From contig NC_079491.1 of NCBI RefSeq assembly GCF_020520425.1, forward strand, positions 8,295,143-8,359,142: a stretch of 64,000 nucleotides of DNA. Direction: 5' to 3'. The notes below the pieces were generated by a model. The model was not told the origin of the DNA, did no database searches, and was given only the letters and a program-made list of their open reading frames with translations. The DNA is from Spinacia oleracea. Taxonomy: Eukaryota; Streptophyta; Magnoliopsida; Caryophyllales; Amaranthaceae. Below, in pieces: positions 3,841-63,325 of this stretch; the stretch's first letter is position 1; each line of letters starts with the position of its first letter. The position numbers were made by a program, and so were the translations under genes.

Positions 3841-5255
3841 GTGAAGATAGGCAAATTTACTGGAAGGAATAGTTTCAGTTTATGGAAGATGAAGATGCGG
3901 GCTTTGTTGAAACAACAAGGGCTATGGGCGCCACTTGCTAGGAAGTCGGCATATCAATCACCGATGAGATGGTCGTTCTGGAGGAGAAGGCACACTCGAC
4001 GATTATGTTGTGTCTTGCTGACGATATCATCACCGAGATCGCGGAGGAGGAAACCGCGCAAGGTCCGTGGGTTAAGCTCGAGGGTCTGTATATGACAAAG
4101 TCCTTAACCAATAAGTTGCTTCTGAAGCAACGTATGTTTAGTCTGCGAATGCAGGAAGGTATGCCTCTCCGAGATCACCTAGATCAGTTAAACACAATTT
4201 TATTAGAATTATGTATTATTGATGTTAAAATAGATGATGAGGATGTTGCTTTAATTCTGTTGGTTTCTTTTCCATTATCGTATGAGAATTTTGTGCAATC
4301 GTTCATTGTTGGTAAAGATACTATTTCCTTAGAGGAGGATAGACCGTCCCTCCATACTAGAGAACTGCGCCATAGGGTGATTGGTACAGGTGCGAATAAT
4401 CAGGTTGGTGGGTTAGTAGCCAGTGGGAGTTATGGACATGGGAATTCGGGGAATAAAAAATTCAAGAAACAAGTTTCTAAAGGTCTAAAACCTAATGGTG
4501 TCTGTAATTACTGTAAAGAGAAGGGACATTGGAAATCTGACTGTCCCAAGAAAAAGAGGCAACAGGAAAAATCGTCAGGTACTGCTGCTGTAGCTGATAC
4601 CAATTCTGAAGAGGATATTGCTCTAGTTTCTTATGAGCACATGCATCACAGTGATGTGTGGATCCTAGATTCTGGAGTATCTTACCATATATGTCCGCGC
4701 AGGGAGTGGTTTACAACCTACGAGCAAGTAGACGGTGGCAATATTTCTATGGCTAATAGTTTTGTTTGTAAGGCGGTTGGAGTAGGCTCGATTAAAATCC
4801 GAACACATGATGGTAAATTCTGCACATCGAATGATGTTAGGCATGTTCCACTTATGACAAAGAATATGATATCTTTGAGTATGCTAGACAACAAGGGTTT
4901 CCGTTTTCAAGGTGAAGGTGGAGTTTTACATGTCTGCAAGGGTTCGAATGTGGTTTTGAAAGGTGTAAAACGTGGTACTTTGTATTTTCTTCAAGGTTCT
5001 ACGTTATCAGGTTCTGTTGTTGTTGCATCCTCGGAGATTGATAAGGAAAACATAACCCCATTATGGCATATGCTTGGTCACATGAGTACAAGGGGGATGC
5101 AAATTCAGTCAAAAGCGGGTCTTCTTTGTGGTCACAAGGTCACAGATCTTGAGTTCTGTGAACATGGTATATTTGGGAAGCTACATCACAACAAGTTTCC
5201 TAAAGGAATACACAAAACAAAAGGCACACTTGATTACATCCATTCTGATTGTTGA
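3841..5255 (+). pseudogene. Copia gag-protease region, frameshifted
   Basis: The first part (3841 to about 3960) reads KIGKFTGRNSFSLWKMKMRA, the start of the copia Gag. It lacks an ATG: the codon at 3841 is GTG. A frameshift near 3960 moves to the frame of 3969-5255. That frame holds the UBN2-type Gag core, a CCHC zinc knuckle (CNYCKEKGHWKSDC, near 4501-4545), the aspartic protease motif WILDSGVSYH (near 4660; most relatives have Ala or Cys where Val stands) and a GAG-pre-integrase block ending HSDC. A TGA at 5253-5255 sits where relatives carry Trp (TGG) before GPSK. Gag normally forms the particle and the protease processes the polyprotein. Confidence 0.85.
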
Positions 5256-5796
5256 GGTCCTTCCAAGGTGGAGTCCTTAGGGGGTCACATATATTTTGTG
5301 TCAATGATTGCTGATTTTTCAAGGATGACTTGGGTTTTCATGATGAAGCATAAAAGTGAAGCCTTTAAGCATTTCAGGCAGTGGAAGGCATTAGTGGAGA
5401 ATCAAATAGGGAAGACGATCAAAAGGCTGTGAACTGATAATGGTTTGGAATTTCGCGGGTTTGAGTTCGATGAGTTTTGAAAGAATGAAGGGATTGCTAG
5501 GCATCATACTGTCACGGATACACCACGGCAGAATGGTGAGGCAGAACGTATGAATCAGACATTTTTAGAGAGAGCTAGGTGCATGCTCTCTAATGCTGGA
5601 CTAACTAGACGTATCTGGGCAGAAGCGTTTAGCACAACATGTTATCTGATAAATCGTGGACCTCACACGGGTATACATCTCAAAACTCCTATTGAGGTGT
5701 GGTCTAGTAAGCCTGCTGATTACTCTTGTTTAAGAACTTTTGGTTGTACTGTTTATTATCATGTAAATGAGGGTAAATTAGAACCACAAGCTAAAA
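5256..5796 (+). pseudogene. Copia integrase core, with stop codons
   Basis: Continuing in the same frame, the rve integrase core reads GPSKVESLGGHIYFVSMIAD, then TDNGLEFRGFEFDEF, then TPRQNGEAERMNQTFLERAR, with Asp, Asp and Glu where the DDE triad is expected. Two more TGA stops, near 5428 and 5478, interrupt it. They fit a CGA-to-TGA change before TDNG and a TGC- or TGG-to-TGA change. The downstream reading continues to HVNEGKLEP, then jumps directly into the linker normally found much later, so a segment after the integrase has been deleted near 5790. Confidence 0.82.
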
Positions 5797-7559
5797 ATGA
5801 ACCACAACATGAAGTTCAACAACCACTGCCAGAATCAGAACCATCAGGTTCCTCATTACCAGTAGCAAATCAGCACAGTTTGGCTCTTGATCAATCAAAG
5901 AGAGCTACTTATGGGATGTCTCCCAAGAGATATCGTTTTGAAGATATGGTGGCTTATGCACTACAGGTTGCTGAAGAGGTGGATCCTGACTCTAATGAGC
6001 CATACACCTACAAAGAAGCAGTTACATGTACTGAATCTACCCAATGGCTTGCTGCAATGGGAGATGAGAAGGAGTCACTTCATAAGGATCAGACTTGGGA
6101 ATTAACTAAGAGACCTCGAGACAGAAAATTTGTCACTTATAAATGGGTCTACAAGAAGAAGGAAGGAGAAACATCTGTTGAGGGTATCAAGTATAAAGCT
6201 CGAGTAGTAGCTAGAGGGTTCACTTAGAGAGAGGGACTAGACTACAATGAGATTTTTTTCACCAGTGGTCAGACACACTTCCATCAGCGTGGTACTAGCA
6301 ATAGTTGCACATCAGGATCTGAAGCTTGAACAACTAGATGTGAAGACAACTTTTTTGCATGGAGAGCTGGAAGAGGAGATATACATGACTCGGCCAGATG
6401 GTTTTCGGGTTCCTGGTAAGAAAGATTATGTTTGGAAGTTGAAGAAGTCTTTGTATGGACTAAAGAAGTCTCTGAGGTAGTGGTATAAGAGATTTGACAG
6501 CTATATGATAGAGATTGGCTACACCAAGAGTCCGTATGACTGTTGTGTTTACTATAACAAGGCAGAAAATGGTCCATTGATTTATCCGGTCCTGTATGTA
6601 GATGATATGTTGTTAGTTGCAGAGAACAAGTCTGATATTCAGAAGTTGAAGGATCTCCTTAGTGCTGAGTTTGAGATGAAAGATTTGGAGCGGCTTGAAA
6701 AATTCTGGGGATGGATATTTATAGGGACAAAAGCAAAAAGAAGCTTTTCTTATCACAGAAGGGGTACATTCAGAAGAGTTTGTCAAGATTTGGCATGTGT
6801 ACAACAAAGCCCACAGATACTCCTAGTGCTGCAAATGCACATCTGTCTGTTGTTTTTGCACCTATGTCTGCCGATCGAGGAGAAGGAGTACATGTCTCGA
6901 GTTCCCTATGCTAGTGCAGTAGGAAGCTTGATGTATGCAATGGTCTGCACTAGACCTGATCTTGCACAGTCTGTTAGTGTTGTTAGTAGGTTTATGGGTG
7001 AACTTGGCAAGGAGTATTAGCAAGCTGTGAAGAGGATTTTTCGGTACCTAAAAGGTACATCTTATGTTGGTCTCATTTATGGAGGTGATTCAAAGTGTTT
7101 GGTAATAAGGTTTTCAGACTCTGATTGTGCTGGAGATGTTGACAATAGAAGATCTATGACAGGTTATGCTTTCACTCTTGGTGGTTTAGTTGTCAGTTGG
7201 AAAGTTACTTTGCAACCTACAATTACATTGTCTACTACAGAAACAGAGTACATGGCATTGATAGAAGCAGCAAAAGAGGGAATATGGTTGAAAGGGTTGG
7301 TCAGTGATTTGGGTCTACATCATGATCGGGCTATAGTGTACTGCGACAGTCCCAGTGCAATATGTTTAGATAAGGATCAAGTCCATCATGAGAGGACTAT
7401 AAGCACATCGATGTAAGGTATCATTTTCTAAGAAGTGAGAAGAGAATTAAGGTGAACAAAGTGGGTACTGCTGATAACCCAGCTGATATGTTCACCAAGC
7501 CGGTTCCACGTAGCAAGTTTCAACATTGTTTGTACTTGCTAAATGTTAGGAGTTGTTGA
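5797..7559 (+). pseudogene. Copia reverse transcriptase and RNase H, broken
   Basis: After the deletion junction the RT_2 domain begins (WLAAMGDEKESLHKDQTWEL, KWVYKKKEG). It continues through LDVKTTFLHGELEEEIYM and the catalytic LYVDDMLLVA near 6595, then RNase H (FSDSDCAGDVDNRRSMTGYA; LSTTETEYMAL) and the C-terminal NPADMFTKPV. Breaks include TAG near 6226 (ARGFT*REG), a frameshift at about 6230-6260, TAG at 6478-6480 (KSLR*WYKRF), a frameshift at about 6700-6890 and TAG at 7018-7020 (KEY*QAV). Natural end is TGA at 7557-7559. Confidence 0.88.
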
Positions 7560-22756: not shown

Positions 22757-24400
22757 TCAAAACTCGGTCGTTTTACCAAAACCAGGACCAACCGCAACTC
22801 GGTTCCGAGTCCGACTCAGTCCACCATCCGGTTCCAGAATCGCCTCCCAATCGATCCCCTCCCCAAGCCCATCCTCACTCTCTATCCTACCTTTCAACAC
22901 CACCAGTATCCGCCTTGCCTTCTCTTTTGCCCGCTCGCTACCGTTCTCCTCGACCTCCTTTAACACCTCCACCGCCCTCGCCTCCTTGGCGAGAGCCTTG
23001 AACCTCATACTACCGTGACTCAGCGCGTAAAGTGCTGCGACACAGTTTTCACGAGTTGACTCGGACTCAAACTCGCCCTTCCCTTTTCTTAACATCCACA
23101 CCAAATGCTCCACCGCATTCCCATCCAACATCGCCGCCTTTCCTTCAGTACTCGCTGCTAATTGATACAGCACCAGTAAAACTCTCCCGGCGATAGACTC
23201 CTTCTCCTGCCGCAGCACCGCCAACAGCGGCGGAACGGCGTTGAATTGCTTCACGAGCTTAACTCTGTTGCTATGATCAAGCGATAAATTATAAAGCGCG
23301 AGCGCCGCGTCACTCCGAGTTCTCTCTGAGTCTGACCTTAACAAGCAGTTCAACAATGGCGGCAAAGCGCCTAGAACACCGATTGCAGTCCGATTCTTCT
23401 CTTCCAAGGAGAGAGAAAATATCAACCCCGCGGCGTGTTCTTGGGCCTCTGACAATCTCCCTCTCAACAACTGAATCACCGTAGGAACAATTCCTGACCG
23501 TACGATCTTCAACTTGTTCGACTTCTCAAGCGACAAATTCACCAGCGCAGCTATGGCGTTTATCTGAACTTTCTCGTAGCTCGAGAAAAGCAGCGATCCT
23601 AGAGCAAGCAACAACCGCGGCGTACACACAGAAACCCGAGCTTCTTCGTCATTTCTCGTCGCTTTTCTCAGCGAAATAGCGCCCTGCTCCTGCTCGTACG
23701 GGTCACAGCTCTTGAATTTAGATATGAATTCCTCGTCGTCGGAAAAATTAGGGTTAGGGTTCATCGCTTCGTCAGAAACTAGGGTATCCGATGAAGAGGT
23801 ATGAAAGGGGGACCAACAAGAAGCAGGCCGAGTGGTGAACGGCAGCGGCGTAAGCGGACTAGCAGCCGCAATCACAGACTCTTCGGAGCTCGTCGACGTA
23901 TCGAACCGGTTGGCCCGGTGAGTCAACTCGGTGACGGCGTGTGATAGGTCCGGGTCAGCCTTATCCTTTACCGAGTCAATGAGGAACCTCTCCGATGGCC
24001 GAATCAAACCATTTTCTCTCTCCTCTTTCTCAAGCAACTCCTTCACAATCCTCTCGACGGCGACGTTCTCCTTTTCCTGAGGTAAAGCGACACCGTTTTT
24101 GGAGCACCAGGTGGGGATAGCAGTGCGGAGGGCCAAATTGGGGATTTTAGTGGAGAAATCAGGGCGGGTACCATCCGGGAAATCCGGCTTAAAGTTATGA
24201 ACCTCACAAACCTCAGCACAGAGGCGGTCGACGGTGTGACCCGACCCTACAACAACCGGGTCAGTGAAAAGGGAGTTGCATATAGGGCAGATGTATTCCG
24301 GCGGCGGTGGCGGTGGAGACTGAGCTTTTGATGACGAACGTGAATGTGAGTTTCTGTAAAATGAGAAATTTAATTTGAGGAATTTCCCATTTCCCCCCAT
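22757..24400 (-). CDS. U-box/ARM-repeat E3 ubiquitin ligase, PUB38-41 type
   Basis: A single uninterrupted 547-aa frame. Residues ~36-103 form the U-box (YICPICNSLFTDPVVVGSGH, then RLCAEVCEVHNF, IPNLALRTAIPTWC), the E2-binding fold that transfers ubiquitin. A Ser/Thr-rich linker follows to about 215. Residues ~225-520 are armadillo-like helices with recurring INAIAALVNLSLEKSNKLKI, EHAAGLIFSLSLEEKNRTAI and DAALALYNLSLDHSNRVKLV, which usually bind substrates. The length and single-exon layout fit the Arabidopsis PUB38-PUB41 clade. The start is the ATG at 24400, as the MGGNGKFLKL N terminus precedes a Pro-rich run common in this clade. The complement-strand frames at 22695-23018 are shadows. The codon usage is GC-richer than the surroundings. 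Cytosolic or nuclear, role in stress or hormone signalling by family analogy only. Confidence 0.95.
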   Translation of the reverse strand: MGGNGKFLKLNFSFYRNSHSRSSSKAQSPPPPPPEYICPICNSLFTDPVVVGSGHTVDRLCAEVCEVHNFKPDFPDGTRPDFSTKIPNLALRTAIPTWCSKNGVALPQEKENVAVERIVKELLEKEERENGLIRPSERFLIDSVKDKADPDLSHAVTELTHRANRFDTSTSSEESVIAAASPLTPLPFTTRPASCWSPFHTSSSDTLVSDEAMNPNPNFSDDEEFISKFKSCDPYEQEQGAISLRKATRNDEEARVSVCTPRLLLALGSLLFSSYEKVQINAIAALVNLSLEKSNKLKIVRSGIVPTVIQLLRGRLSEAQEHAAGLIFSLSLEEKNRTAIGVLGALPPLLNCLLRSDSERTRSDAALALYNLSLDHSNRVKLVKQFNAVPPLLAVLRQEKESIAGRVLLVLYQLAASTEGKAAMLDGNAVEHLVWMLRKGKGEFESESTRENCVAALYALSHGSMRFKALAKEARAVEVLKEVEENGSERAKEKARRILVVLKGRIESEDGLGEGIDWEAILEPDGGLSRTRNRVAVGPGFGKTTEF

Positions 24401-28790: not shown

Positions 28791-29170
28791 AATATCTTAC
28801 ATTGAATACGTTTTAAGACCATTTACCCAAGAACACAATCTCATAAAATTGAATACTATGGATTATTCCGCATGTAAATTTCTTGGTCAAAGTCTTGACC
28901 GTTAGGGAAATCAACAAGTTGCTTTTTAAGTTACTTGAGTATTGTATAATTTAAGTTCCAATTTTCAACCTAAGAATTCAGCTGCATACTTTTTAATTTT
29001 TATTGCTACGACTAAATTATATGTCAGATCAACTTGAATATATGGTTTCTTTTGGTCCATATGTTATCCTGATTGGGCCACTACTCAGTCGGTCCAAAAA
29101 TAAGCAGCTACGCCTAATTGAAATAGGTCCATTCATTCCGGGCTGTAGAAGATCCATACATGGCAGAACC
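28791..29170. other. Spacer, no gene recognised
   Basis: No coding signal. Confidence 0.4.
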
Positions 29171-29185
29171 ACAGTGTGTATTCAT

Positions 29186-29380
29186 ACTAATTGAGGTTGG
29201 CATGAGTGGTTAAGGGCCTCTTGCTCCTTAACCAAGGTCTCGGGTTCGAGCCTTGGGAATGGAAAAAATCTCAACTGGGAGGGATGCTGCCCATCGAGGT
29301 ACCCATACAAACTCCCGCGGAAGATTAGTTCACTCGCCGAAGGCGGTGGGAACTCCTCGTAGTAGAACCCAAAAAAAAAA
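29186..29380 (+). mobile_element. tRNA-derived SINE, copy 1
   Basis: Box A-like GAGTGGTTAAGGGCC and box B GGTCTCGGGTTCGAGCC lie near the 5' end. The body ends in A11. A perfect 15-bp duplication ACAGTGTGTATTCAT occurs at 29171-29185 and 29381-29395. This is diagnostic of a SINE mobilised by LINE machinery. Confidence 0.88.
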
Positions 29381-29395
29381 ACAGTGTGTATTCAT

Positions 29396-29652
29396 CACTG
29401 AATGGGCATTTATTTCGGGTCGGTCAGCTTTTAACCCATGTGTTTACTAAAATAATCTCCGTTGTCCCAGACTCCCACTCACTAACTTTTCTTTTCGTTA
29501 TTTCATTTTTCTTTGTGCAATCTTTTATTTATTTTTAATGCAAGCATAGAACATTAGATTAAAAAGTTCAAAAGGTTACAAGAGAACGTTCAAGGAAATT
29601 TATCCTTCAAAATTACATTCACAACAAACATAGGAGGGTTGTTCAAAACACT
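29396..29652 (-). pseudogene. RNase H-like 3' tail (LINE-derived), left side of the MULE
   Basis: On the minus strand at about 29587-29648, SVLNNPPMFVVNVILKDKFP then stop resembles the C-terminal tail of plant LINE-derived RNase H genes. It continues the fragment on the other side of the MULE at 34790-35051. The rest of the interval is non-coding. Confidence 0.4.
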
Positions 29653-29661
29653 TTAAATTAA

Positions 29662-29747
29662 CGGTTTTTTCATGAAATGCCCCTGAGGTTTTAAAAAACG
29701 CACCAAATACCCTCGCCTGTTTCGATTCACATAATATACCCCTATTT
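29662..29747 (+). repeat. MULE left TIR
   Basis: It matches the complement of 34696-34780 throughout except for one T in the run near 29690. Immediately inside, GTTAGCTAACGCCGTTAGTC echoes CCGTTAGTCCTCCGTTAAG on the other side, so subterminal similarity extends further. Confidence 0.93.
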
Positions 29748-30134
29748 ATCCGTACTGTTCATGACATGCCCCTGTTAGCTAACGCCGTTAGTCTGCCGTT
29801 AGTGGTGTTTTACTTATTTGCCCTTAATTTTGGTTTAGCGCCATTGACTTCCTTCACTTTCACAGAAAGACCAAAAAAAAAAAAAACCGTTCACATTTTT
29901 CTCTTTCTCTCTCCTCTCCCCTGTTCTTCTTCAAGCTCTAATCCTACTCAAACCCTAGAAATTCTGGGTAGATCTTCAATATTTTTGTGAATTTTGCTGC
30001 GCACCTTAAAGGCGAGTTCGTGGGTTGTGATTTTGCTTCAATCGCGACAAAAAAGGGAGAAACTTGAGGCGATTTCCAGTTGAGTTAGTGTTGAAGAGGA
30101 AACGGAATTTAAAGTTGGTTAGTCTACTTCCAGG

Positions 30135-30322
30135 TAATAATCTCTTCTCCTCTGTTTAATTTTGCTGGTAAACTTGTTTTTTTTTCACGAAATCGATTAG
30201 GGTTAGGGTTTGTGAAATTGTCAGTTTTTTTTTTAAAATTGCGCAACTTTCTTGTTGGTTATTGGTCAATTGTGGTTGTTGGAATGAAAATTGATGTTAG
30301 TTTCATTATTTTTTCCCTTTAG
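30135..30322 (+). other. Probable 5'-UTR intron of the MULE transposase
   Basis: CTTCCAG|GTAATAATC at 30134/30135 and TTTCCCTTTAG ending at 30322 make good donor and acceptor sites, placing the ATG at 30324 one base into the next exon. Confidence 0.55.
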
Positions 30323-30323
30323 G

Positions 30324-33300
30324 ATGAGTGCTATTTGGTTGTTACTACGTTATGGGTCACATAGTTTTGATATTAGAGTGGGAGACATGGAAAAATATCG
30401 TTTGTTGAAGTTGTTTCTTGATATCTTTGAGGAATCAGTTAAGCAAGATGTTTTTTTGCCTAGTACCTTTAGCTTGTATGTTGAGGGTCCTTGTGGTAAG
30501 GTTGAATTGAATGATGATAAGACTTTAAGGCTTCTGTGGGGATGGAATTGGGGTAAAGACACTGCTGAAATTTGGGTTGAGGGAACAGATAAACCAGGAT
30601 TGGTGTTTAGGAATGCTGTTGCAACAATTGAGAATCATAGAAAGGAAAAAGAGAGACAACTTAAGGAGAGACAAGAGGAACTGTTGAGGGCTCAAAGAGA
30701 GGAGGAAGAGGCAATGAGGAAACAACAGGAAAGGGAGGACATTTTGAGGGAAATACAGGAACAAATGGAGTACACTGTGGCTATGGAGGTCCCTGTTGTT
30801 GATTGTGAGGACATGAAGGTTGAGTATGTGAGAGTCATTAGCAAAGATGATGCTGATGAGGTGTTTCCAGGTTGCTCTCAACCAAAACAAACACAAGAAT
30901 CCCCAAAGAAACAACCCACCCCACCCAAACACACAAATCATGTTGCTTCTAAGTCAAAAGGCAAGGATAAGCCTGCTTCTAAGAAACTAACCCCCAAAAG
31001 GAGGGCATCAGCTAAACAACCCACCCCACATAAACAACCCACCCCACCTAAACAACCCACCAAACAACCTACACCACCACCCCCACCACCCCCACCACAG
31101 AAAGAACCCACCCAACCAAAACAACAACAACACACACCACCACCAGAACATCCCACCTCTCCACCACAACAACAACAACACACACCACCACCAGAACATC
31201 CCACCTCTCCACCACAACATCACACCCCTCCACCACCACCACAAAATCCCACTCCACCATAGAACAACCAAACTGATGAGCCTAACAATCAAGCACCACC
31301 TGATCAAGCTCAGCCAGTGAAAAAGAAGGGGGGCAGAGCTAGACCTGAGGGGTTTAGGGTTAACAAAGTCACTGCTAAGAAGGCTGGAACTTGGGTTTCC
31401 AAGGGAAAGGGAAAAGGGAGAAAGGGTACAGGAAGGTCTAAGACACCAGGGGTTTTTGCTGATGTTGGTGAGATATGTTCAGAAGAGGAGAGTGAGGATT
31501 CTGATTATGAGGAATCAGATTCTGAACAAGAGGATGTTCTGAATGATTGGATTGATTCTGATGTTGATGATGAGGTGATTCCTGATGATATTCCTGATTT
31601 GGGGTTTGAGGATTGTCTAAATGGTTCCTCAAAGATGGATAAGGCCTATAAAAATGGCAAAATATGGACTGATCAACCATATGGGTCCATTCAGTTAGAA
31701 CCCTGGTTGATCTTTCATGATAAGGCCACATTTCTTGAAGTGTTGAGAAGTTACTGCATACAGGAGGGGTTTGGGCTTAGTGTTGAGAGGGCTGATAATA
31801 GGAGGTACACAGCAGTGTGTGCAGTGGAGTCATGTGACTGGAGGATACATGCCAGTAGGTTGTTTGACAATGTTAGCTGGGCCATTAAGGTGATCAGTGG
31901 GTCCCACAGAACTTGTGGGAGGCTTGAGGAGAATCCAGTAGTGACCTCTGAGTGGTTGTGTAAGCATATGTTGGGGGAAATAGAGGCAAATCCAGAGATT
32001 CCAGTGGAGACATTGAGGAGGTATGCACAGGAGAAGTTTCAGTTGAGGGTGAAAAAGAGGCTATTGTACAAGGTCAGGAGTATGGCAAAGGGAAAGCTGC
32101 ATGGTGGTTGGGCTGAAGCATATGAGCTGTTGCCTAGATATGCTGAGATGATTAAGAAAACAAACCCAGGGAGTCATGCACTTATAACATGGGGGGCCAG
32201 TAGTGGGGATGTGAACCCAAAATTCAGAGCTTGCTTCTTCTCATTTGCTGCACAAGTCAGGGGGTTTCTAAGGGGTTGTAGGCCCATAATTGGAATAGAT
32301 GGGGCTCATTTAAGTGGTTTCTACAAGGGCATTCTACTGACAGCAGTTGGCATAGATGGGAATAATGAAATTTTTGTTCTTGCCTATGGGATAGTAGACA
32401 CTGAGAGTTGTGACAGTTGGACCTACTTCATGAGATGTTTGAGGCAAATGTTTGAGCAGGAGGGTTGCAACAGAGATGATTGGACCTTCATCAGTGATAG
32501 GATGAAGGTATGTGTACTGATCTGATATTTACTCTTTTCTGATCTTTACTTTTTCTTATGTTTATGTTTCTATATTAATGAACCTGTTTTTGTTGTTTGC
32601 TGATGTGTAGGGTGTTGAGTTGGCAGTTAGAGAAACTTTTCCTAGAGCAACTAGGAGAGTTTGCTGCCAACACCTATACATGAATTGTAAGAACAATGGC
32701 TTCAGTGGATCTGCATTCCACAAGCTATTTTGGATAGCTGCTAATGCATACAATGAGTATGTGTTTGGTAAGGCCATGGAAAAGATCAGTGAGTACAATG
32801 CAAATGCCACTGCATACTTGAACAGCTGCATTGAGCAGTGGTCTAGGCATAAGTTTGACTCTACTGTTTGTTGTGATCACAACACAACAAACTTTGTGGA
32901 GTCATTCAATGCATGCACAAAGCCCTTCAGAGACATGCCTGTCTTCTCATTATTGGAAGGTATAACTCTTCTAATCATATTCATGCATAATATTACCCCT
33001 GAACTTGTTGTTTGTTGTTTAATCATATTCATGCATAATATACCCCTGAACTTGTTGTTTGTTGGTTAATGTCTGGTGTACAGCAATCAGAAGTTGGTGT
33101 ATGCAGAGGGTGGGGGCTAGATTTGACAAGGCAGTTGACATGGAGGAAGGTCAGCTCACTGCATATGCATTGAAAGAGTTAGAGGAGAGGACAGCTGAGT
33201 CCAGGTTATGTTATGCCACAGCATGTGGAGGGGGTGAATTTGAGGTTAGGGATGGACATGTCAACTTCCCAATTAGGCTTGCAACAAGAAGTTGTGCCTG

Positions 33301-33742
33301 TGGGAAGTGGCAGATCTGTGGAATCCCCTGCAAGCATGCACTGAGGGTCATATATGACCAAAGGATGAACCCCCATGATTTCATATCCCCATGGTTCAAG
33401 GCTGCTGCATACAAGCTAACCTATGCAGAACATATTCATCCTATGGCAGATCCATCTCAATGGCCTGACTTTGGCCTTCCTTCCATTCAGCCTCCAACCA
33501 TCAAAAGACCATCTGGCAGACCTGCTAAGAAGAGAAAGAGAGGGGCAAATGAACCAAAGAAAGGGAAGAGGAACACAAATGTGAAATGTGGAAAGTGTAG
33601 AGAGTTTGGTCACAACTCAAGAACATGCAAGAGTGGAGGAACAAGTGCCACTGGACCAAGTACTTCAAAGAGTGGTGCAGCAGGAGCAAGTACATCAAAT
33701 GGGGGACCAAACACAAGGAAGAGGTCAAAGGCAGCTGCATAG
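30324..33742 (+). CDS. MULE transposase (mudrA-like), three coding exons, one internal TAG
   Basis: Coding exons are 30324-32507, 32611-32959 and 33084-33742, with GT/AG introns that keep frame. The product is about 1060 residues if the TAG at 31260-31262 is read through. The N-terminal ~90 residues (HSFDIRVGDMEKYRLLKLFL) resemble the PB1-like module of plant MULEs. A charged coil (KEKERQLKERQEELLRAQRE) and a Pro/Gln-rich linker follow, where the TAG lies. Next is an acidic stretch and the MuDR DNA-binding region (CDWRIHASRL). The catalytic DDE domain shows IGIDGAHLSGFYKG and FISDRMKG, then CCQHLYMNCK. The SWIM zinc finger is CACGKWQICGIPCKH and a CCHC knuckle is CGKCREFGHNSRTC. It would cut and paste the element in the nucleus. 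The ATG at 30324 is chosen because it follows the acceptor at 30322. Confidence 0.88.
32970..33062 (+). repeat. Tandem duplication in transposase intron 2
   Basis: AATCATATTCATGCATAATA followed by CCCCTGAACTTGTTGTTTGT occurs twice, about 48-50 bp apart. It lies wholly within the 124-bp intron and nearly doubles its length. Confidence 0.85.
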
Positions 33743-34014
33743 TCACCTCAGTTGGCTATATTTTGTGAATTGTAGTGCACAAAGCTAAACTAACTTAGTC
33801 AAATCAGTTTAGTCAGAATCAGTTTAGTTAGAATCAGTTTTTGGAAACAGTTGTGCAGAGATCATTTTTTGGAAACAGTGAAATGCTTAGAACACCTCTT
33901 TTTGTGCAGTTCAGTGGTGTTTGTCCACTTAAAGTTCAGTTTATGTAAAGCTTATTTGCTTGAACAAGTATTTATGGAACAAAGTCTCTTTATTTCATGA
34001 AATTTGTTACAACT

Positions 34015-34470
34015 TTACTTCATTGCTATCCAAATCAGAAATGCAAACATTAATACACCAATTTTTATTGCAAAATTGATTTGCTGTTTCTGTTGTTTGA
34101 TCTTCTTCTTCAATAGCTTCAACTCTTCATGCATTCCCCTGCTCTGTTCTTGCATTCCCCAGCTTTGTTCTTGCATTCCCCTGTTTTCATCATCTCTGTT
34201 TCCCTTGCTCTGAACTTCATCACTTGTGTGCTCAAGAAAACCTTTGCACCATTTGAAATTATCACAAGGATCACACTTGTAGTAAAGCTTTTGCGGATTT
34301 TTTTCCGTTTCCGAGCTCCTAATTGCAAATCTTCTCCCGCAATAGCAATTTTTATTAGGAACTCTAATGTATGCTAAATTTGGGATGGAAGAAGATTCGA
34401 TTTTTGAATGAGAGCTCATGGCTAATTTGGAGAGGGGAAAGTATGCAAGTGAGGTGAACACTAGTAGCAT
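34015..34470 (-). CDS. GRF zinc-finger, coiled-coil, tail-anchored small protein in the MULE
   Basis: A single-exon 151-aa frame. An in-frame ATG at 34419 (MSSHSKIESS) is the more likely start and gives 134 aa. Residues ~42-80 form a GRF-type zinc finger (NCYCGRRFAIRSSETEKNPQ, then KLYYKCDPC...FKWCKGF). A short Gly-Met-Gln repeat (GMQEQSWGMQEQSRGM) and a Lys/Gln coiled coil (ELKLLKKKIKQQKQQ) follow. The last ~20 residues (FAIKIGVLMFAFLIWIAMK) are a membrane anchor. GRF fingers bind single-stranded nucleic acid in other proteins. Plant genomes hold many such short GRF proteins (At4g04775-like annotations). Here it lies inside the TIRs, convergent to the transposase with 272 bp between stops, so it belongs to the element. 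Its role in transposition is inference. Confidence 0.8.
   Translation of the reverse strand: MLLVFTSLAYFPLSKLAMSSHSKIESSSIPNLAYIRVPNKNCYCGRRFAIRSSETEKNPQKLYYKCDPCDNFKWCKGFLEHTSDEVQSKGNRDDENRGMQEQSWGMQEQSRGMHEELKLLKKKIKQQKQQINFAIKIGVLMFAFLIWIAMK
34129..34190 (-). repeat. 20-21-bp tandem repeat coding GMQEQS(W/R)
   Basis: TTCTTGCATTCCCC (complement strand) recurs three times within the GRF gene, making the heptad-like GMQEQS(W/R) repeats next to the coiled coil. The copy number may vary between elements. Confidence 0.75.
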
Positions 34471-34695
34471 TTATATGCAGCAAGAACATAACGGCTATAT
34501 TTTGCTTCCTAGGTTTAAAAACTAGCCGTTAAATTCAAATTCCTGCAATTTGGGTATCTAGTGCAACTTAATTTTAAAATAGGTGTATATTATGCATTAA
34601 GTTTATAAAAAGGGGTATACTGTGAATTATAAACACGACTTAACGGAGGACTAACGGAAGGTCAGTTAAGGGGTATTTGGTGCAAACTTGGAAAA

Positions 34696-34780
34696 AAATA
34701 GGGGTATATTATGTGAATCGAAACAGGCGAGGGTATTTGGTGCGTTTTTTAAACCTCAGGGGCATTTCATGAAAAAACCG
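34696..34780 (-). repeat. MULE right TIR
   Basis: It is the complement of the left TIR and ends ...GGCATTTCATGAAAAAACCG at 34780, followed at once by the TTAAATTAA duplication. Confidence 0.93.
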
Positions 34781-34789
34781 TTAAATTAA

Positions 34790-35051
34790 TTAAAGATATA
34801 TTACATCGAATGACACATTTTAGCCATTTTATCCGCCACCTTGTCAATACATCTCAGGACATACACAATCTCAACTCCCGGAAGGCATTGGTGCAAAACA
34901 TGTTCCAAACAGTTGCAGAAGCGAGTTTGCTAAGCAGGTGGAGGCAGTTTAGCTTCGGTAGTCCTCTTTGGAGGGGTTGAGTTTCTATACTGCAATGTCA
35001 TCTGTGATGAAATCTTCAAATGATATTACTGGAATCGTAAAGCCACAACGA
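34790..35051 (-). pseudogene. RNase H-like fragment (LINE-derived), right side of the MULE
   Basis: On the minus strand at about 34806-34920, NCLEHVLHQCLPGVEIVYVL then RCIDKVADKMAK has the 'R-x-x-N/D-x-x-AD-x-x-A' ending of LINE-type RNase H (RVT_3). The tail resumes beyond the MULE at 29587-29648. The MULE thus landed in the 3' end of a decayed RNase H/LINE relic. Confidence 0.45.
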
Positions 35052-35323
35052 CTACGGATCATTAGACAATAGCGCATCATCATATACCGTTGGACTAATC
35101 GTATATCTTTGAAATCTATTCCCAAAGTTTACTTGGAACTGCGGTAGTATGAGATTTGAGTGTAGGTTTAATCGTTCTCCGTATTCTAACATTCTACCTC
35201 TTCTGATTATCAGAATATCGCCACCAAAGTCAGACTGGACGATGTATAAGTAAGGCTCTGTGTCGAGCTCTGAAAGCGTAGTCGTAAAATCTGGATCTAT
35301 TTCAATAGGTCCATACACATAAT

Positions 35324-35699
35324 TAGACCTGGTTATCGGGCGGGGCGGGTCAGGGTCGGTGCGGGTCAAAAGAGGGTCGGGTATTGAAAGGGTCATTTTT
35401 AGCGGGTCGATAATGGGCGGGTCAAAAGCGGGTCGCGGGTCAATAGCGGGTCATTAGTGGGCGGGTCAATAAACGAGCAATGAAAAATGAAAAACAAAAG
35501 AGCCATGTGCAAGTACAAGTAAATACGAAGCTATACACGTAATTTTTGGTATCATTACTATTTTAATTTTCAAAATAATTGTAGTATAAGTTTGACCCTA
35601 TAATGACCCTGTCCAATAAAGGCCCTGTCCAATAAGAGCCCTATTAACTTGACCCTAACCCAATATCCATTGGACTACCCTGTCCAATAACCAGGTCTA
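35324..35699. mobile_element. hAT-type element in the F-box gene, TAGACCTGG ends
   Basis: TAGACCTGGTTAT at the left and ATAACCAGGTCTA at the right are perfect 13-bp inverted repeats. An 8-bp duplication CACATAAT lies at 35316-35323 and 35700-35707. The interior carries GGGTCG and complementary CCCTGTCCAATA words. 376 bp, non-coding, same family as 14194 and 14950. Confidence 0.9.
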
Positions 35700-36387: not shown

Positions 36388-36534
36388 AATGCCCCCCAGA
36401 CCCAATTCTATTTGAAAAATGGGTTGGGTTTTGATTTTGATCACTTCCAAGTGAAAGTCGATTTCAGCTCAGAATTTTAACCTCGGCTCGGATTGTAACA
36501 TCGGTTCGAGTTGTAATCTCGGCTCGGATTTTAC

Positions 36535-36905
36535 CTTCGGATTTTTGTCCTTCGGATTTTTACCTTCGGCTCGGTTTTGTCCTTCGGATTTTTACCTTCG
36601 GCTCGGTTTTATCCTTCGGATTTTTACCTTCGGCTCGGTTTTGTCCTTCGGATTTTTACCTTCGGCTCGGTTTTATCCTTCGGATTTTTACCTTCGGCTC
36701 GGTTTTATCCTTCGGATCGATTTTTACCTTCGGATTTTTACCTTCTTCTCGGATTTATCCTTCGGATTTTTACCTTCGGCTCGATTTTATCCTTCGGATT
36801 TTTACCTTCGGATCGGTTTTATCCTTCGAATTTTTACCTTCGGCTCGGTTTTATCCTTCGGATTTTTACCTTCGGCTCGGTTTTATCCTTCGGATTTTTA
36901 CCTTC
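36535..36905. repeat. 32-bp tandem repeat block 1
   Basis: The unit CGGATTTTTACCTTCGGCTC plus GGTTTTATCCTT is repeated about eleven times with variants (GGTTTTGT, GATCGG). The unit has no stop in any plus-strand frame, which creates long spurious ORFs. Confidence 0.93.
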
Positions 36906-36910
36906 GGATC

Positions 36911-37505
36911 GGATTGTAACATCGATTCGAGTTGTAATCTTTGAGCGATTTTTAACCTCGTTCTTCAAATCCGGAGATCTGTTTAAGAACGTGCTTCTAA
37001 AATCGGCTCGGATTGTAACATCGGTTCGAGTTGTAATCTCGGAGCGGCTTTTTACCTTCGGCTCGGATTGTAACATCGATTCGAGTTGTAATCTTTGAGC
37101 GATTTTTAACCTCGTTCTTCAAATCCGGAGATCTGTTTAAGAACGTGCTTCTAAAATCGGCTCGGATTGTAACATCGGTTCGAGTTGTAATCTCGGAGCG
37201 GCTTTTTACCTTCGGCTCGGATTGTAACATCGATTCGAGTTGTAATCTTTGAGCGATTTTTAACCTCGTTCTTCAAATCCGGAGATCTGTTTAAGAACGT
37301 GCTTCTAAAATCGGCTCGGATTGTAACATCGGTTCGAGTTGTAATCTCGGAGCGGCTTTTTACCTTCGGCTCGGATTGTAACATCGATTCGAGTTGTAAT
37401 CTTTGAGTGATTTTTAACCTCGCTCTTCAAATCCGGAGATCTGTTTAAGAACGTGCTTCTAAAATCGGCTCGGATTGTAACATCGGTTCGAGTTGTAATC
37501 TCGGC
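36911..37505. repeat. 154-bp tandem repeat, about 3.8 copies
   Basis: The starts GGATTGTAACATCGATTCGA lie at 36911, 37065, 37219 and 37373, exactly 154 bp apart. Each unit has two half-related segments (TAACATCGATTCGAG and TAACATCGGTTCGAG). Copies are almost identical; the last has GAGTGA for GAGCGA and GCTCTT for GTTCTT. Confidence 0.95.
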
Positions 37506-37830
37506 TCGGATTTTACCTTCGGCTCGGTTTTATCCTTCGGATTTTTACCTTCGGATTTTTACCTTCGGCTCGGTTTTATCCTTCGGATTTTTACCTTCGG
37601 CTCGGTTTTATCCTTCGGATTTTTACCTTCGGATTTTTACCTTCGGCTCGGTTTTATCCTTCGGATTTTTACCTTCGGATTTTTACCTTCGGCTCGGTTT
37701 TATCCTTCAGATTTTTACCTTCGGCTCGGTTTTATCCTTCGGATTTTTACCTTCGGCTCGGTTTTATCCTTCGGATTTTTACCTTCGGCTCGGTTTTATC
37801 CTTCGGATTTTTACCTTCGGCTCGGTTTGA
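37505..37830. repeat. 32-bp tandem repeat block 2
   Basis: The same 32-bp unit as block 1 resumes, with extra half units (CGGATTTTTACCTT doubled). The two blocks bracket the 154-bp array. Confidence 0.92.
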
Positions 37831-58783: not shown

Positions 58784-61700
58784 CTAAACGAATAACTGGG
58801 GATATTTCGCTCTCATTTGCGCTTCGACTTCCCATGTGGCTTCAGATGTCAAGTGATTGGCCCACAAGACTTTAACCATTGGAATTACTTTGCTTCTAAG
58901 TCGTTTCTCTCTTCGTTCTAGAATTTCAATTGGCTTCTCCTCGTAAGTTAAATCGTTTCGCAATAGCAAGGGTTCGTGCGTAATCACATGGCTAGGATCA
59001 GGAACATATTTTCTTAACATCGACACGTGGAATACATTATGCACCTTTTCCAAGTCGGTTGGTAAAGCTAGTCGATATGCTACTGCACCTACTCTTTCTA
59101 GTATCTCATATGGCCCGATGTATCTTGGGCTCAACTTTCCCGTTTGACCAAATCTCATTATTCCTTTCGTTGGCGAAATTTTCAAGAACACGTGATCTCC
59201 AACCTCAAACTCTAGAGGTCTTCTTCGTTGGTCTGCATAACTCTTTTGCCTACTTTGCGCTGCCATCATTCTTGATTGGATTAAACGAATCTTGTCAGTA
59301 GTTTCTTGAATCAATTCTGGTCCTATAACACGCGCCTCATCGATATCACTCCAACATAATGGTGTTCGACATTTCCTTCCATAAAGTGCTTCGTAAGGTG
59401 CCATACCAATGGTGGCCTGATAACTGTTGTTGTACGAAAATTCAACCATAGGTAGAAACTTCTCCCAGGTTCCTTGAAAATCCAAAATACATGCTCTCAA
59501 CATATCCTCGACAATTTGATTGGTACGTTCTGTTTGTCCATCAGTCGTTGGGTGAAATGCGGTACTAAAGTTAAGTTTCGTCCCAAGGGCTTTCTGCAAT
59601 TCTTTCCAGTAGGTTGATTGATACCTCGTGTCACGATCAGAAACAATCGAACTAGGCACTCCATGCAATCGCACAATAGTGTTCACATATAGCTCGGCCA
59701 GTTGATCTAAACTCGAATTACTCTTCATTGCTAAGAAATGTGCTGACTTCGTTAATCGATCAACAATAACCCAAATAGCATTCATTCCCTTGGTTGATCT
59801 TGGTAAACCTATGATAAAATCCATTGAAACTGAATCCCATTTCCATTCTGGCACATCCAGAGGTTGCAACAAACCTGCTGGTCTTTGATGCTCGATCTTG
59901 ATTCTCTGACACGTCAAACATTTAGCCACATATTCTGCCACTTCTTGCTTCATGTTGCTCCACCAATACACTTGCCTTAAATCCTTATACATCTTATTTC
60001 CTCCAGGGTGAATCGAGTATGGTGAACTATGAGCTTCTTCTAAAATTCTCTTTTTCAACTTCTCATCATTAGGCACACATAATCTTCCCTGAAACCTTAA
60101 CGTGCCATCTTCTTGAATGACAAAACCAGGTGACTTCCCGTTTTCCACTTCACTCCTTATTCTTTCTAATTGCAAGTCCTTACATTGCGCTTCCTTAATC
60201 TCATCAATCAAAGTTGGTTTCATTACCAACACATTCAAGCAAGCATCTCCTTTGATAAACTCAATTTCCATCTTTTGTAGATCATCTTGGTTGACTCGGG
60301 AGAAAGTTAGGATAGAATTTAAGTGAGACTTTCGACTTAATGCATCCGCAACAACGTTAGCCTTTCCGGGATGGTATTGAATATCAAGGTCATAATCTTT
60401 AAGAAGTTCTAACCACCTACGTTGTCTCATGTTGAGTTCTTTTTGGGTGAAAATGTACTTAAGACTCTTATGGTCGGTGAAAATTTGACACGAAACTCCA
60501 TACAAATAATGTCTCCAAATCTTAAGGGCGAAAACAACAGCTGCAAGTTCGAGGTCATGGGTAGGGTAATTTTGTTCATGAACTTTGAGTTGGCGTGAGG
60601 CATAAGCTATAACTTTTCCGTTTTGCATTAAGACACATCCTAACCCATTTTTAGAAGCATCACTATAGATTACAAATCCGTCAGTTCCAGATGGAAGGGT
60701 AAGAATAGGGGCAGTGGTAAGACGTTTCTTAAGTTCTTGAAATGCACATTCACAATCATCATTCCACACAAATTTGGTATTCTTTCTAACTAATCGGGTT
60801 ATGGGCAAGGCAACCTTAGAAAAATCTTGAACGAATCTTCGATAGTATCCAGCTAAACCCATAAAACTCCGTACTTCTGGTACATTAGTTGGTCTAGACC
60901 ATTCCACAATTGCTTTTATTTTCTCGGGATCAACAGATACACCTTTCTCAGAGATAATATGTCCTAAAAATGATATTTCCTTAAGCCAGAATTCACATTT
61001 CGACAACTTAGCATATAACTGGTTTTCAATCAACATATCTAACACTTTTCTCAGGTGCTCCTCGTGTTCCTCATTACTCTTAGAATATACCAAAATATCA
61101 TCAATGAAAACGACTACAAACTTATCAAGGTATGGTTTAAAAATACGGTTCATCAAATCCATAAATACAGCGGGCGCATTGGTTAACCCAAAAGGCATCA
61201 CAACAAACTCATAGTGACCATATCTAGTTCTAAAGGCTGTCTTTGGAATATCCTCAGGTTTAATTCGAAGTTGATGGTAACCTGACCTCAAATCAATCTT
61301 AGAAAACACCTTTGCACCTCGAAGTTGGTCAAACAAATCATCAATACGAGGTAGAGGATACTTATTCTTAATGGTAATCTTGTTTAACTCTCGATAATCT
61401 ATGCATAACCTCATAGTTCCGTCCTTTTTCTTCACAAACAAGACAGGGGCTCCCCAAGGTGAAACACTAGGTCGAACATATCCTTTTTCAAGTAACTCAT
61501 CTAATTGTTTCTTTAATTCTTGTAACTCAGCTGGTGCCATTCTATATGGTGCCTTAGAAATAGGGGTAGATCCTGGAATTAATTCAATGCTGAAATCTAA
61601 TTCTCTTGGTGGGGGCATACTAGGTATTTCTTCTGGAAAAACATGTGGGTATTCACAAAATACAGGTATGTCAGTAATGGAAGGTACATGGGTATTTAGG

Positions 61701-63325
61701 TCAACCACACTACATAGGTAACCAGATAAACCACTCTCAATCATTTTACGTGCTCTCAAAGCATGGACAATTTGAATCGTTGGTTTTCTTACTAACTTAT
61801 GAAATGAAACTCTATCTCCACCTGGCGTTCTAAGGGTCACACTTTGCCTTGAACAATTAAGGTTAGCTTCATACTTAGTCAACCAATTCATTCCCAAGAT
61901 TACATCAAATTCAGATAGGTCAAAGGCTACTAAGTCTGCTAGAAACTCTACTTTTTCTATTACAATGGGACAATCTCTATACATGGTCCTACATTTCACT
62001 ATTTCTCCACTAGGAAGGGAAACACTCATAGCATGAAAGTCACAACATGGTTTCAAACTTAAACATTTAGCAAACAATGGTGAAATAAAGGAATGTGAAG
62101 CTCCAGAATCAAAAAGAACATGGGCAGGTAACGAATGGATAGAAAAGGTACCGGTGATAACATTATCATCCTCATCTGCTTCATCTTGTCTCATCACAAA
62201 AACTCTTCCAGTTGGCGGTGGTCGAGGTGGGTTGCGGTTTGAACCTCCTACATTGTTGTTCCGACCACGATCGTTGTTAGTTGAAACTGGTCCTCTCATG
62301 GTTGGCGTCACTTGATTTGGGCAATCTCTGACGTAATGATCATGGCTTCCACATCGATAGCAAGCATTCGTGCCAACACGACATTCACTCTCCACATGAC
62401 TCCTTTTTCCACATTTGGCACATCCTTGCGACCGATTGTTCCTTCCTTGAAATCCTTGTCCCCTATTATTTCCTTGATTACCATCATTCCTCCTTTGATT
62501 TCCCTGGTAACTTTGGTTGGGCTTCTTTGCTCCTCCTTGGCTTTGGTTATCATTTCTCCTTTTATACCCAACATTCTTCGCTTCTCGAAGTAGTACCACT
62601 CGCTCCACATTAGCCGCAATATCAACCATATCCTGGTATGAAGTAAACCTCTGAGTGGACAACCTATCCTGGTACTTAAGGTGCAGACCTCGTTCAAAAC
62701 GGTTCATCCTGGACTGCTCTGTCGACACCAAGTCTGGTGCAAACCTTGACAACTCCATAAACTTATTTGCGTATTCCAACACGCTCATTGTTCCTTGTTG
62801 CAAGTGTAGAAATTCATCTTCTTTTTGTTTCCTCAAGGATGGTGGATAAAACTTGTCTCTCATTAACTTCTGGAGTTCGTTCCAACCAAATCCAGGCCCA
62901 TTCTTTCGTTCCTTGTTAACTTTCCACCATAATCCTGCTTGGCCTGACAAGTAGAACACTGCGAAATCAACTCTCCATTTCTCAGGGCACTGCAGGGTTT
63001 CAAACAACTGATCAATGCGACTTATCCAATCCTCGAACTCAACTGGATCAGGCTTGCCATCATAGGATGGTGGGTTGAGTGACGAAAAGTTCTTGAACGT
63101 CGCTGCGCTCTCGTTTCCACTAACATCTTTCTTTTTCCGAGAATCATGGACTAATTCGGCCAACATTGAACTCACATTTTCCAATCGTTCCATCCTTTCC
63201 TCATGGCCATTAACATGGACATACTCCTCGTGAGAAATGTCATTATCATCGTGAACATGATGCTCGTTGCGAGCTCCGTTGGTAACATCGTTGATAGCAT
63301 CGATGGTCGACATTCTGCATAACAT
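58784..63325 (-). CDS. Tekay-type chromovirus Gag-Pol polyprotein, uninterrupted
   Basis: A single 1513-aa frame without stops. Order: retrotransposon Gag ([20 protein letters not shown], ~110-205), two CCHC knuckles ([28 protein letters not shown], ~305-340), aspartic protease ([12 protein letters not shown], ~400), reverse transcriptase ([26 protein letters not shown], ~600-790), RNase H ([35 protein letters not shown]), integrase with HHCC ([16 protein letters not shown]) and DDE core ([33 protein letters not shown]). The C-terminal group-II chromodomain is [20 protein letters not shown]. The second Met (63313, MSTIDAIN) may be the true start. Chromodomains of this clade steer insertion toward heterochromatin. 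All catalytic motifs look intact, so the copy may be active. Confidence 0.96.

Follow-up and report, generated by a model that had tools for sequence, protein, structure and literature searches.

Does the small gene that faces the transposase gene in a Mutator-like element (MULE) of spinach belong to that element, or is it a host gene that the element has picked up on its way? The question is raised by an element at positions 29662-34780 of a 64-kb stretch of Spinacia oleracea DNA (assembly GCF_020520425.1, contig NC_079491.1, forward-strand positions 8,295,143 to 8,359,142), which is referred to as the window and whose own coordinates are used throughout. An initial annotation of the window, made from the sequence alone, placed between perfectly bounded Mutator terminal inverted repeats (TIRs) a mudrA-type transposase gene on the plus strand and, convergent with it on the minus strand, a gene for a short protein with a GRF finger. 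Since MURB, the second protein of the maize element MuDR, is needed for insertion and yet is confined to Zea, and since the open reading frames (ORFs) at this place in Abermu elements vary by host, the role of such second proteins is a live question. In this work, we argue that the spinach element is, with high probability, one copy of a recently active group of MULEs with two resident genes.

The element is a complete MULE of 5,119 bp, and the end positions given in the initial annotation hold. The TIR 20-mer CGGTTTTTTCATGAAATGCC occurs exactly twice in the window, in inverted orientation, and in none of 100 shuffles. The two TIR arms are identical over 58 nt (29690-29747 and 34696-34753) and near-perfect over ~85 nt (29662-29747 on the plus strand and 34696-34780 on the minus strand), the outer part differing by a single 1-nt gap; weaker similarity continues inward to ~29810 and ~34631, respectively, and blastn aligns arms of ~150 nt at 84% identity. 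Two extra subterminal copies of the TIR motif, CATAATATACCCCTATTT, are found on the minus strand between 34577 and 34624 (34577-34594 and 34605-34624). The target site duplications (TSDs) of MULEs are 8-11 bp long, usually 9 bp, and the 9-bp sequence TTAAATTAA is present in identical form at both flanks of the element (29653-29661 and 34781-34789). Long TIRs, a 9-bp TSD and a transposase of the MULE-type DDE class (see below) place the element among the MULEs, and its TIRs and TSD show that it arrived at this site by transposition; the proposed perfect Mutator boundaries are thus borne out by the inverted 20-mer, the near-perfect arms and the duplication. As to further copies, none of 290 tblastn matches to either gene in the window fell outside 29000-35500, and Rfam gave no match anywhere in the window. 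No relative was found in viral and prokaryote collections, in which an 18-mer of the TIR matched 45 prokaryote stretches, taken as chance.

The plus-strand gene was modelled with three coding exons (30324-32507, 32611-32959 and 33084-33742), which are separated by GT-AG introns (32508-32610 and 32960-33083) and are probably preceded by an intron in the 5' leader (~30134-30322). Exon 1 encodes a proline/glutamine-rich linker, the MuDR DNA-binding domain (DBD_Tnp_Mut, 41.0 bits) and the start of the MULE domain (41.9 bits) with the motifs GIDGAH and SDRMK, exon 2 contains the candidate catalytic glutamate (VESFNA), and exon 3 encodes a SWIM finger (34.8 bits); all three domains score above their Pfam cut-offs, and exon 3 also has a CX2CX4HX4C zinc knuckle with a weak Pfam match (E 0.0096). 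The three acidic motifs stand in order and would supply the catalytic residues. The frame of 1,063 codons contains a sole stop, a TAG at codon 313 (31260-31262) in the proline/glutamine-rich linker, so the window copy lacks the uninterrupted frame of an autonomous MULE. On the other hand, exon 1 is without a stop in all five other full-length copies (see below). The gene therefore encodes a MuDR-group DDE transposase that is broken by a stop in the window copy and not in exon 1 of the others: the mudrA-type assignment stands, while the frame of this particular copy does not. The window copy probably makes no working transposase, which need not be true of other copies, and a shorter product from a start downstream of the TAG is conceivable. 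Intron 2 contains a 47-bp unit repeated twice in tandem (32972-33070; 96% alike).

The second gene, on the minus strand at 34015-34419, encodes a protein of 134 aa, or of 151 aa if translation starts at the ATG at 34470 (34015-34470), and its stop lies 272 bp from that of the transposase gene, in accordance with the layout first described. The 134-aa start is the better one, because a TATAAA box candidate lies upstream of it at 34470-34475, and because of the start columns of the relatives in alignment A2. By eye, 11 of the 16 other rows of that alignment start at the 134-aa column or one residue before it and four start later; P0001 alone begins 17 residues earlier. An AATAAA polyadenylation-signal candidate is located at 33989-33994, at the 21st nt past the stop. 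The encoded protein consists of a GRF-like zinc-ribbon segment (residues 21-60; 34240-34359) with cysteines at 25, 27, 49, 52 and also 58, a helix, and a C-terminal hydrophobic segment (residues 114-132; 34024-34080; mean Kyte-Doolittle 2.17) followed by two residues. A 21-bp tandem repeat (34126-34183) gives rise to heptads of the GMQEQS(W/R) type, where P0003, a relative, shows only one copy, of the GMHEEL type. A single hydrophobic segment thus lies within the last 30 residues, as in a tail anchor, and a tail of this kind (mean of at least 1.8 over 19 residues) is also present in 14 of 18 relatives; P0004 is borderline (1.56), and P0009, P0014 and P0017, which are without it, look incomplete at their C-terminal ends. 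Across the family the ribbon is the most conserved part (mean pairwise identity 0.63) and the linker the least (0.19), and the predicted fold is the same in two family members. P0003, an annotated spinach relative, ends in ILDINEVEL, which by eye resembles a frame-shifted reading of the window sequence there, as if that copy had suffered a small indel.

Evidence on whether the second gene is resident comes from other copies in the spinach genome (search space 894,210,420 bases), where the TIR 20-mer occurs 673 times in forward and 632 times in reverse orientation, its reversed control not at all. The initial annotation had called for a search of the genome for TIR pairs, and held that the gene would be captured cargo if most full-length relatives lacked it. 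The search was run, and pairing was surveyed at 100 listed TIR places, all on contig 1. Among these, five TIR pairs are 5.12-5.14 kb apart, and all five hold both genes in convergent orientation, each with a perfect 9-bp TSD of its own. Three are of the window kind, with second-protein identities of 98-100%, and the other two are of a second lineage, with 84-85%; full-length relatives that mostly lack the gene were looked for and not found. Perfect, mutually different 9-bp TSDs flank all ten TIR pairs, these five included, that were fetched besides the window element. A TIR pair of 3,034 bp has lost part of the transposase and kept the second gene, and four pairs of 1.7-2.2 kb contain neither gene. 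On contig 1, TIR pairs of ~1.2-2.2 kb, which are short derivatives, are more numerous than full-length ones.

The two genes were also traced independently of the TIRs. Scoring covered 150 of 1,251 candidates for the second gene and 134 of 918 for the transposase, and the proportions below apply to the listed loci. The second gene is present at no fewer than 151 loci, and most of the listed ones are without stops. When 1.5 kb was inspected on each side of the best 30 loci, which include the window itself and three of the five full-length copies, a convergent transposase exon 3 was found at 29 of them, and at 28 an exact TIR 20-mer lies ~345 nt beyond the second gene on the other side. All six diverged second-gene loci (50-54% identity) adjoin a convergent transposase as well, in one case only a displaced fragment, so that, of the 36 loci whose surroundings were inspected, 35 lie next to a transposase. 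The suggestion that orphan short GRF proteins of plants are transposon genes thereby finds support for spinach, plants in general being outside these data, and small proteins of GRF type that are listed as host products in spinach and its kin should be treated with caution, as they may come from transposon genes. That the minus-strand ORF is a chance frame or an annotation artefact would agree with its weak Pfam match; set against its match to an annotated protein at E = 1.3e-53, the number of stop-free loci and a ratio of nonsynonymous to synonymous substitution rates (dN/dS) below 0.4, this idea can practically be dismissed.

Viewed from the transposase, a convergent second gene from the list stands no more than 5 kb downstream at 80 of 135 listed loci, where 0.06 is expected by chance, and a second gene in any other arrangement within 5 kb was seen at none of them. 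Seven more of the 135 have a convergent second gene at 6.6-14.8 kb, a spacing probably due to nested insertions. The partner rate follows transposase identity, being 36/38 at 93-100%, 33/41 at 81-92%, 11/24 at 67-72% and 0/32 at 63-66%. The last value arises because only listed second genes were counted, since all four loci fetched from this most distant lineage carry a convergent member of 125 aa. These results bear directly on the possibility that a host gene was picked up and is carried as a useless passenger in the manner of a Pack-MULE. Gene capture by MULEs is described as frequent in passages of PMC3276141 and PMC13317346, and one locus, L091, has the second gene and a TIR with no transposase within 1.5 kb. 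The regular presence of the gene beside transposases of 65-100% identity, in a layout that does not vary, and its dN/dS of 0.07-0.36 between lineages speak against a passenger, which we regard as very improbable. The form of this idea in which few copies carry the gene is ruled out by the genome copies.

The pattern of substitution points to a resident gene as well. Between the lineages here called A and B, dN/dS of the second gene is 0.28-0.36 and that of transposase pieces 0.06-0.20. Among loci of lineage C, dN/dS of the second gene is ~0.07-0.08 for L094 and L096 versus L098, and 0.32-0.35 for L094 versus L096 and L094 versus L097. Furthermore, the protein identities of the two genes correlate with r 0.91 over 55 pairs of 11 copies, the pairs not being independent of one another. 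For the copies examined, it is thus shown that the second gene belongs to the element, as it lies in the same place and orientation beside transposases of 100% to ~66% identity and is under purifying selection.

Relatives of the second protein were also found outside spinach. Protein searches gave four relatives and then 18 (7,989 candidates were scored in the second search), six of which are named, i.e. those of spinach, quinoa (two), Saponaria (two) and beet. The quinoa second gene LOC110731058 and the quinoa transposase gene LOC110731059 have consecutive numbers, and both lie on contigs of 1,611,459 bp. Quinoa gene numbers follow scaffolds, since those of other genes on shared scaffolds are 3 to 191 apart in seven pairs, and the rough chance of a consecutive-number neighbour for a given quinoa gene is 0.0012. 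A 91-row tree places the transposase of quinoa in the same 28-row clade (95) as that of the window. We infer that the second gene was in the element before the spinach and quinoa lineages parted. Same-chromosome matches of P0003 with P0022 and P0037 in spinach, and likewise those in beet, were dropped as support, the window itself being spinach; the closest listed transposase by E-value, P0020, is on a chromosome other than that of P0003. No listed transposase matches the contigs of P0001 and P0002 (5,168 and 5,088 bp), and the lineage-B copies carry the sequence of P0002, as judged by eye. Transposase relatives of Bienertia sinuspersici (P0026, P0036, P0043, P0084 and P0099) bear names such as filamentous hemagglutinin, titin-like and Gag-Pol, which are probably annotation errors.

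Several observations weigh against two resident genes with a common past, or against the GRF-like nature of the second protein. To begin with, 48 of the 135 transposase loci are without a listed partner. Eleven of these were fetched, and the second gene proved to be intact in six, a fragment in one and absent from four (two, one and four, respectively, for the seven loci fetched besides the four of the 63-66% band). In the 3.5 kb fetched, transposase exon 3 is likewise incomplete or missing at the five without an intact second gene, and among the loci fetched there is none at which the transposase core, exon 2 and exon 3 are all complete and the second gene is lacking. The second point concerns the synonymous divergence (dS) between lineages A and B: the second gene gives 0.21-0.26, pieces of the transposase 0.49-0.99 (L054/L056 versus the window); likewise, L094 and L096 differ by a dS of 0.115 in the second gene and of 0.459 in the transposase. 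In these copies dS is lower for the second gene than for the transposase; lineages seem to have swapped the 3' part, which contains the second gene, and the two genes are without one common history throughout. Thirdly, the quinoa pairing is read from gene numbers only, and on the scaffold of P0008, the second relative from quinoa, no transposase is listed. In addition, a rice Abermu element without a convergent ORF appears to have moved, according to part of PMC9168764, and such genes can accordingly be dispensable elsewhere.

The remaining points concern the kind of protein. The 151-aa form scores 16.8 bits against the GRF family (PF06839), below the gathering cut-off of 25.9, and the 134-aa form has no GRF match in Pfam at E 0.1. 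A Foldseek search with the predicted structure gave no match with E <= 0.001, and in the VIA comparison the ribbons reach Z values of only 2.8-3.8, the top rows being long helices of unrelated proteins. A profile search of solved structures returned nothing below E 0.76. GRF zinc fingers carry a G-R-F signature before the third cysteine, in place of which the family alignment mostly reads NPQ(K/R)LYYKC, and NPFKLYYKC in Saponaria. On the other side, 13 of 17 family members match GRF at E 0.1 or better, the best at 1.6e-4. The GRF finger of the initial annotation thus survives as a likeness shared by most of the family and not as a membership: judged by its sequence, the protein would not be counted as a GRF member of Pfam.

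What might such a protein do? Transposases of the MULE superfamily bind TIRs and cut, and the spinach transposase would do the same. NEIL3 and APE2 use their GRF ribbons to bind single-stranded DNA. The second protein would most likely be an accessory one, with a GRF-like ribbon that binds nucleic acid. Its helix could pair as a coiled coil. With the ribbon as the most and the linker as the least conserved part, the protein looks like a binding module carried by a stalk of little-constrained length. The hydrophobic end may be embedded either in a membrane, that of the endoplasmic reticulum (ER) or the nuclear envelope, or in a partner protein. That the protein helps transposition by binding nucleic acid is a tentative reading that we put at somewhat under even chances, and the membrane step would be less sure still. 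The fullest version, in which a membrane-anchored helper with its ribbon on a coiled-coil stalk keeps the ends of the transposon at either the nuclear envelope or the ER, provides an independent answer to the need met by mudrB, is kept by selection over lineages and genera and is the source of many short GRF-type host annotations, is doubtful as a whole.

The main rival to a helper of transposition is an anti-silencing factor resembling VANC of VANDAL elements, which would bind the ends of the element and remove DNA methylation without a part in the transposition reaction. VANC is itself a product of a MULE second gene with an anti-silencing role, as described in parts of PMC13317346 and PMC6446971, and the several subterminal TIR-motif copies upstream of the spinach gene are potential binding sites. 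No sequence relation to VANC came to light, though none was searched for; a hydrophobic C-terminal end would be odd in a chromatin factor, and we consider this explanation unlikely. The spinach copies offer material for scoring conserved residues, loss and exchange, and for trials of the protein together with the transposase of its own element.

Elsewhere in the window, an uninterrupted frame of 1,513 aa of the Ty3/gypsy type occupies 58784-63325 on the minus strand, in which the gag, protease, reverse transcriptase, RNase H and integrase zinc-binding domains exceed their cut-offs and the integrase core stays below its own. Three separate frames at 3969-7020 on the plus strand resemble pieces of a copia-type retrotransposon; the frame at 3969-5255 was scanned and contains gag and Pol beta-barrel domains, and the other two were judged by eye. 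At 36474-37828, tandem repeats with units of 14, 32, 55, 96 and 154 bp are densely nested around TCGGATTTTTACCT, and a single minus-strand frame of 547 aa at 22757-24400 encodes a U-box and armadillo repeats, as in U-box E3 ligases of plants.

MULEs with a convergent second gene have been described before (PMC9168764, PMC6446971). In the literature searched, which omits most subscription journals and Repbase, no GRF-type gene tied to a MULE was found among the papers listed. The term GRF is absent from the main text of PMC9168764 and of PMC6446971; in the passages of PMC9100400 and PMC9940365 that contain it, it stands for binding sites or growth-regulating factor; and seven papers naming both a GRF zinc finger and a transposon do so, in the portions available, in gene lists or passing mentions with no link to MULEs. 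The GRF proteins NEIL3 and APE2 differ from the spinach family, in which the G-R-F signature reads Q-K/R-L-Y, and RPB9-type ribbons score equally.

The spinach element resembles VANDAL in that extra genes are retained in a MULE lineage; VANDAL differs in that its genes belong to other protein families and act against silencing by motif recognition. MULE groups that bear a plant mobile domain (PMD) share with the spinach element an extra antisense ORF and differ in its motif. Such antisense PMD ORFs are given for the plant MUDR-type MULE groups 42 and 47-50 in Table 1 of PMC6446971. In VANDAL, vanB/vanC and KIU (Ulp1) genes are kept in the lineage, VANC being an accessory protein with a shown effect, according to parts of PMC13317346 and PMC6446971; the former source describes VANDAL as non-TIR, while Table 1 of the latter lists TIRs of 46-174 bp. 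Abermu elements of type II have a transposase gene, ORF1, a convergent ORFR between ORF1 and the 3' TIR, and 9-bp TSDs, whereas type III is without ORFR; in the part of PMC9168764 concerned, ORFR is assigned no family or function and is unrelated between distant hosts. Compared with Abermu by description only, the second gene of spinach differs in being of one family over diverged lineages.

MuDR of maize agrees in plan, with long TIRs, a 9-bp TSD, a MuDR-group DDE transposase and a small convergent second gene, so that the MuDR-like two-gene layout of the initial annotation is upheld. In MuDR, mudrB is convergent, needed for integration and confined to Zea (parts of PMC6446971 and PMC3276141). 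The convergent position could suggest that the spinach gene is a true relative of mudrB diverged beyond recognition; given that mudrB is reported from Zea only (PMC3276141, in part), and that the ORFs found at this position in Abermu show no relation to MURB or, across distant hosts, to one another (PMC9168764, in part), position is no proof of descent and such kinship is extremely improbable. The spinach gene appears instead to stand in for mudrB, with no known kinship between the two. Unlike MURB, which was compared by description only, the spinach protein combines a GRF-like ribbon, a helix and a hydrophobic tail, and the element is not MuDR proper. Its novelty lies in the kind of second protein and in the persistence of that protein over diverged lineages: one family holds a fixed place beside transposases down to 66% identity, with many near-identical copies in a crop plant.

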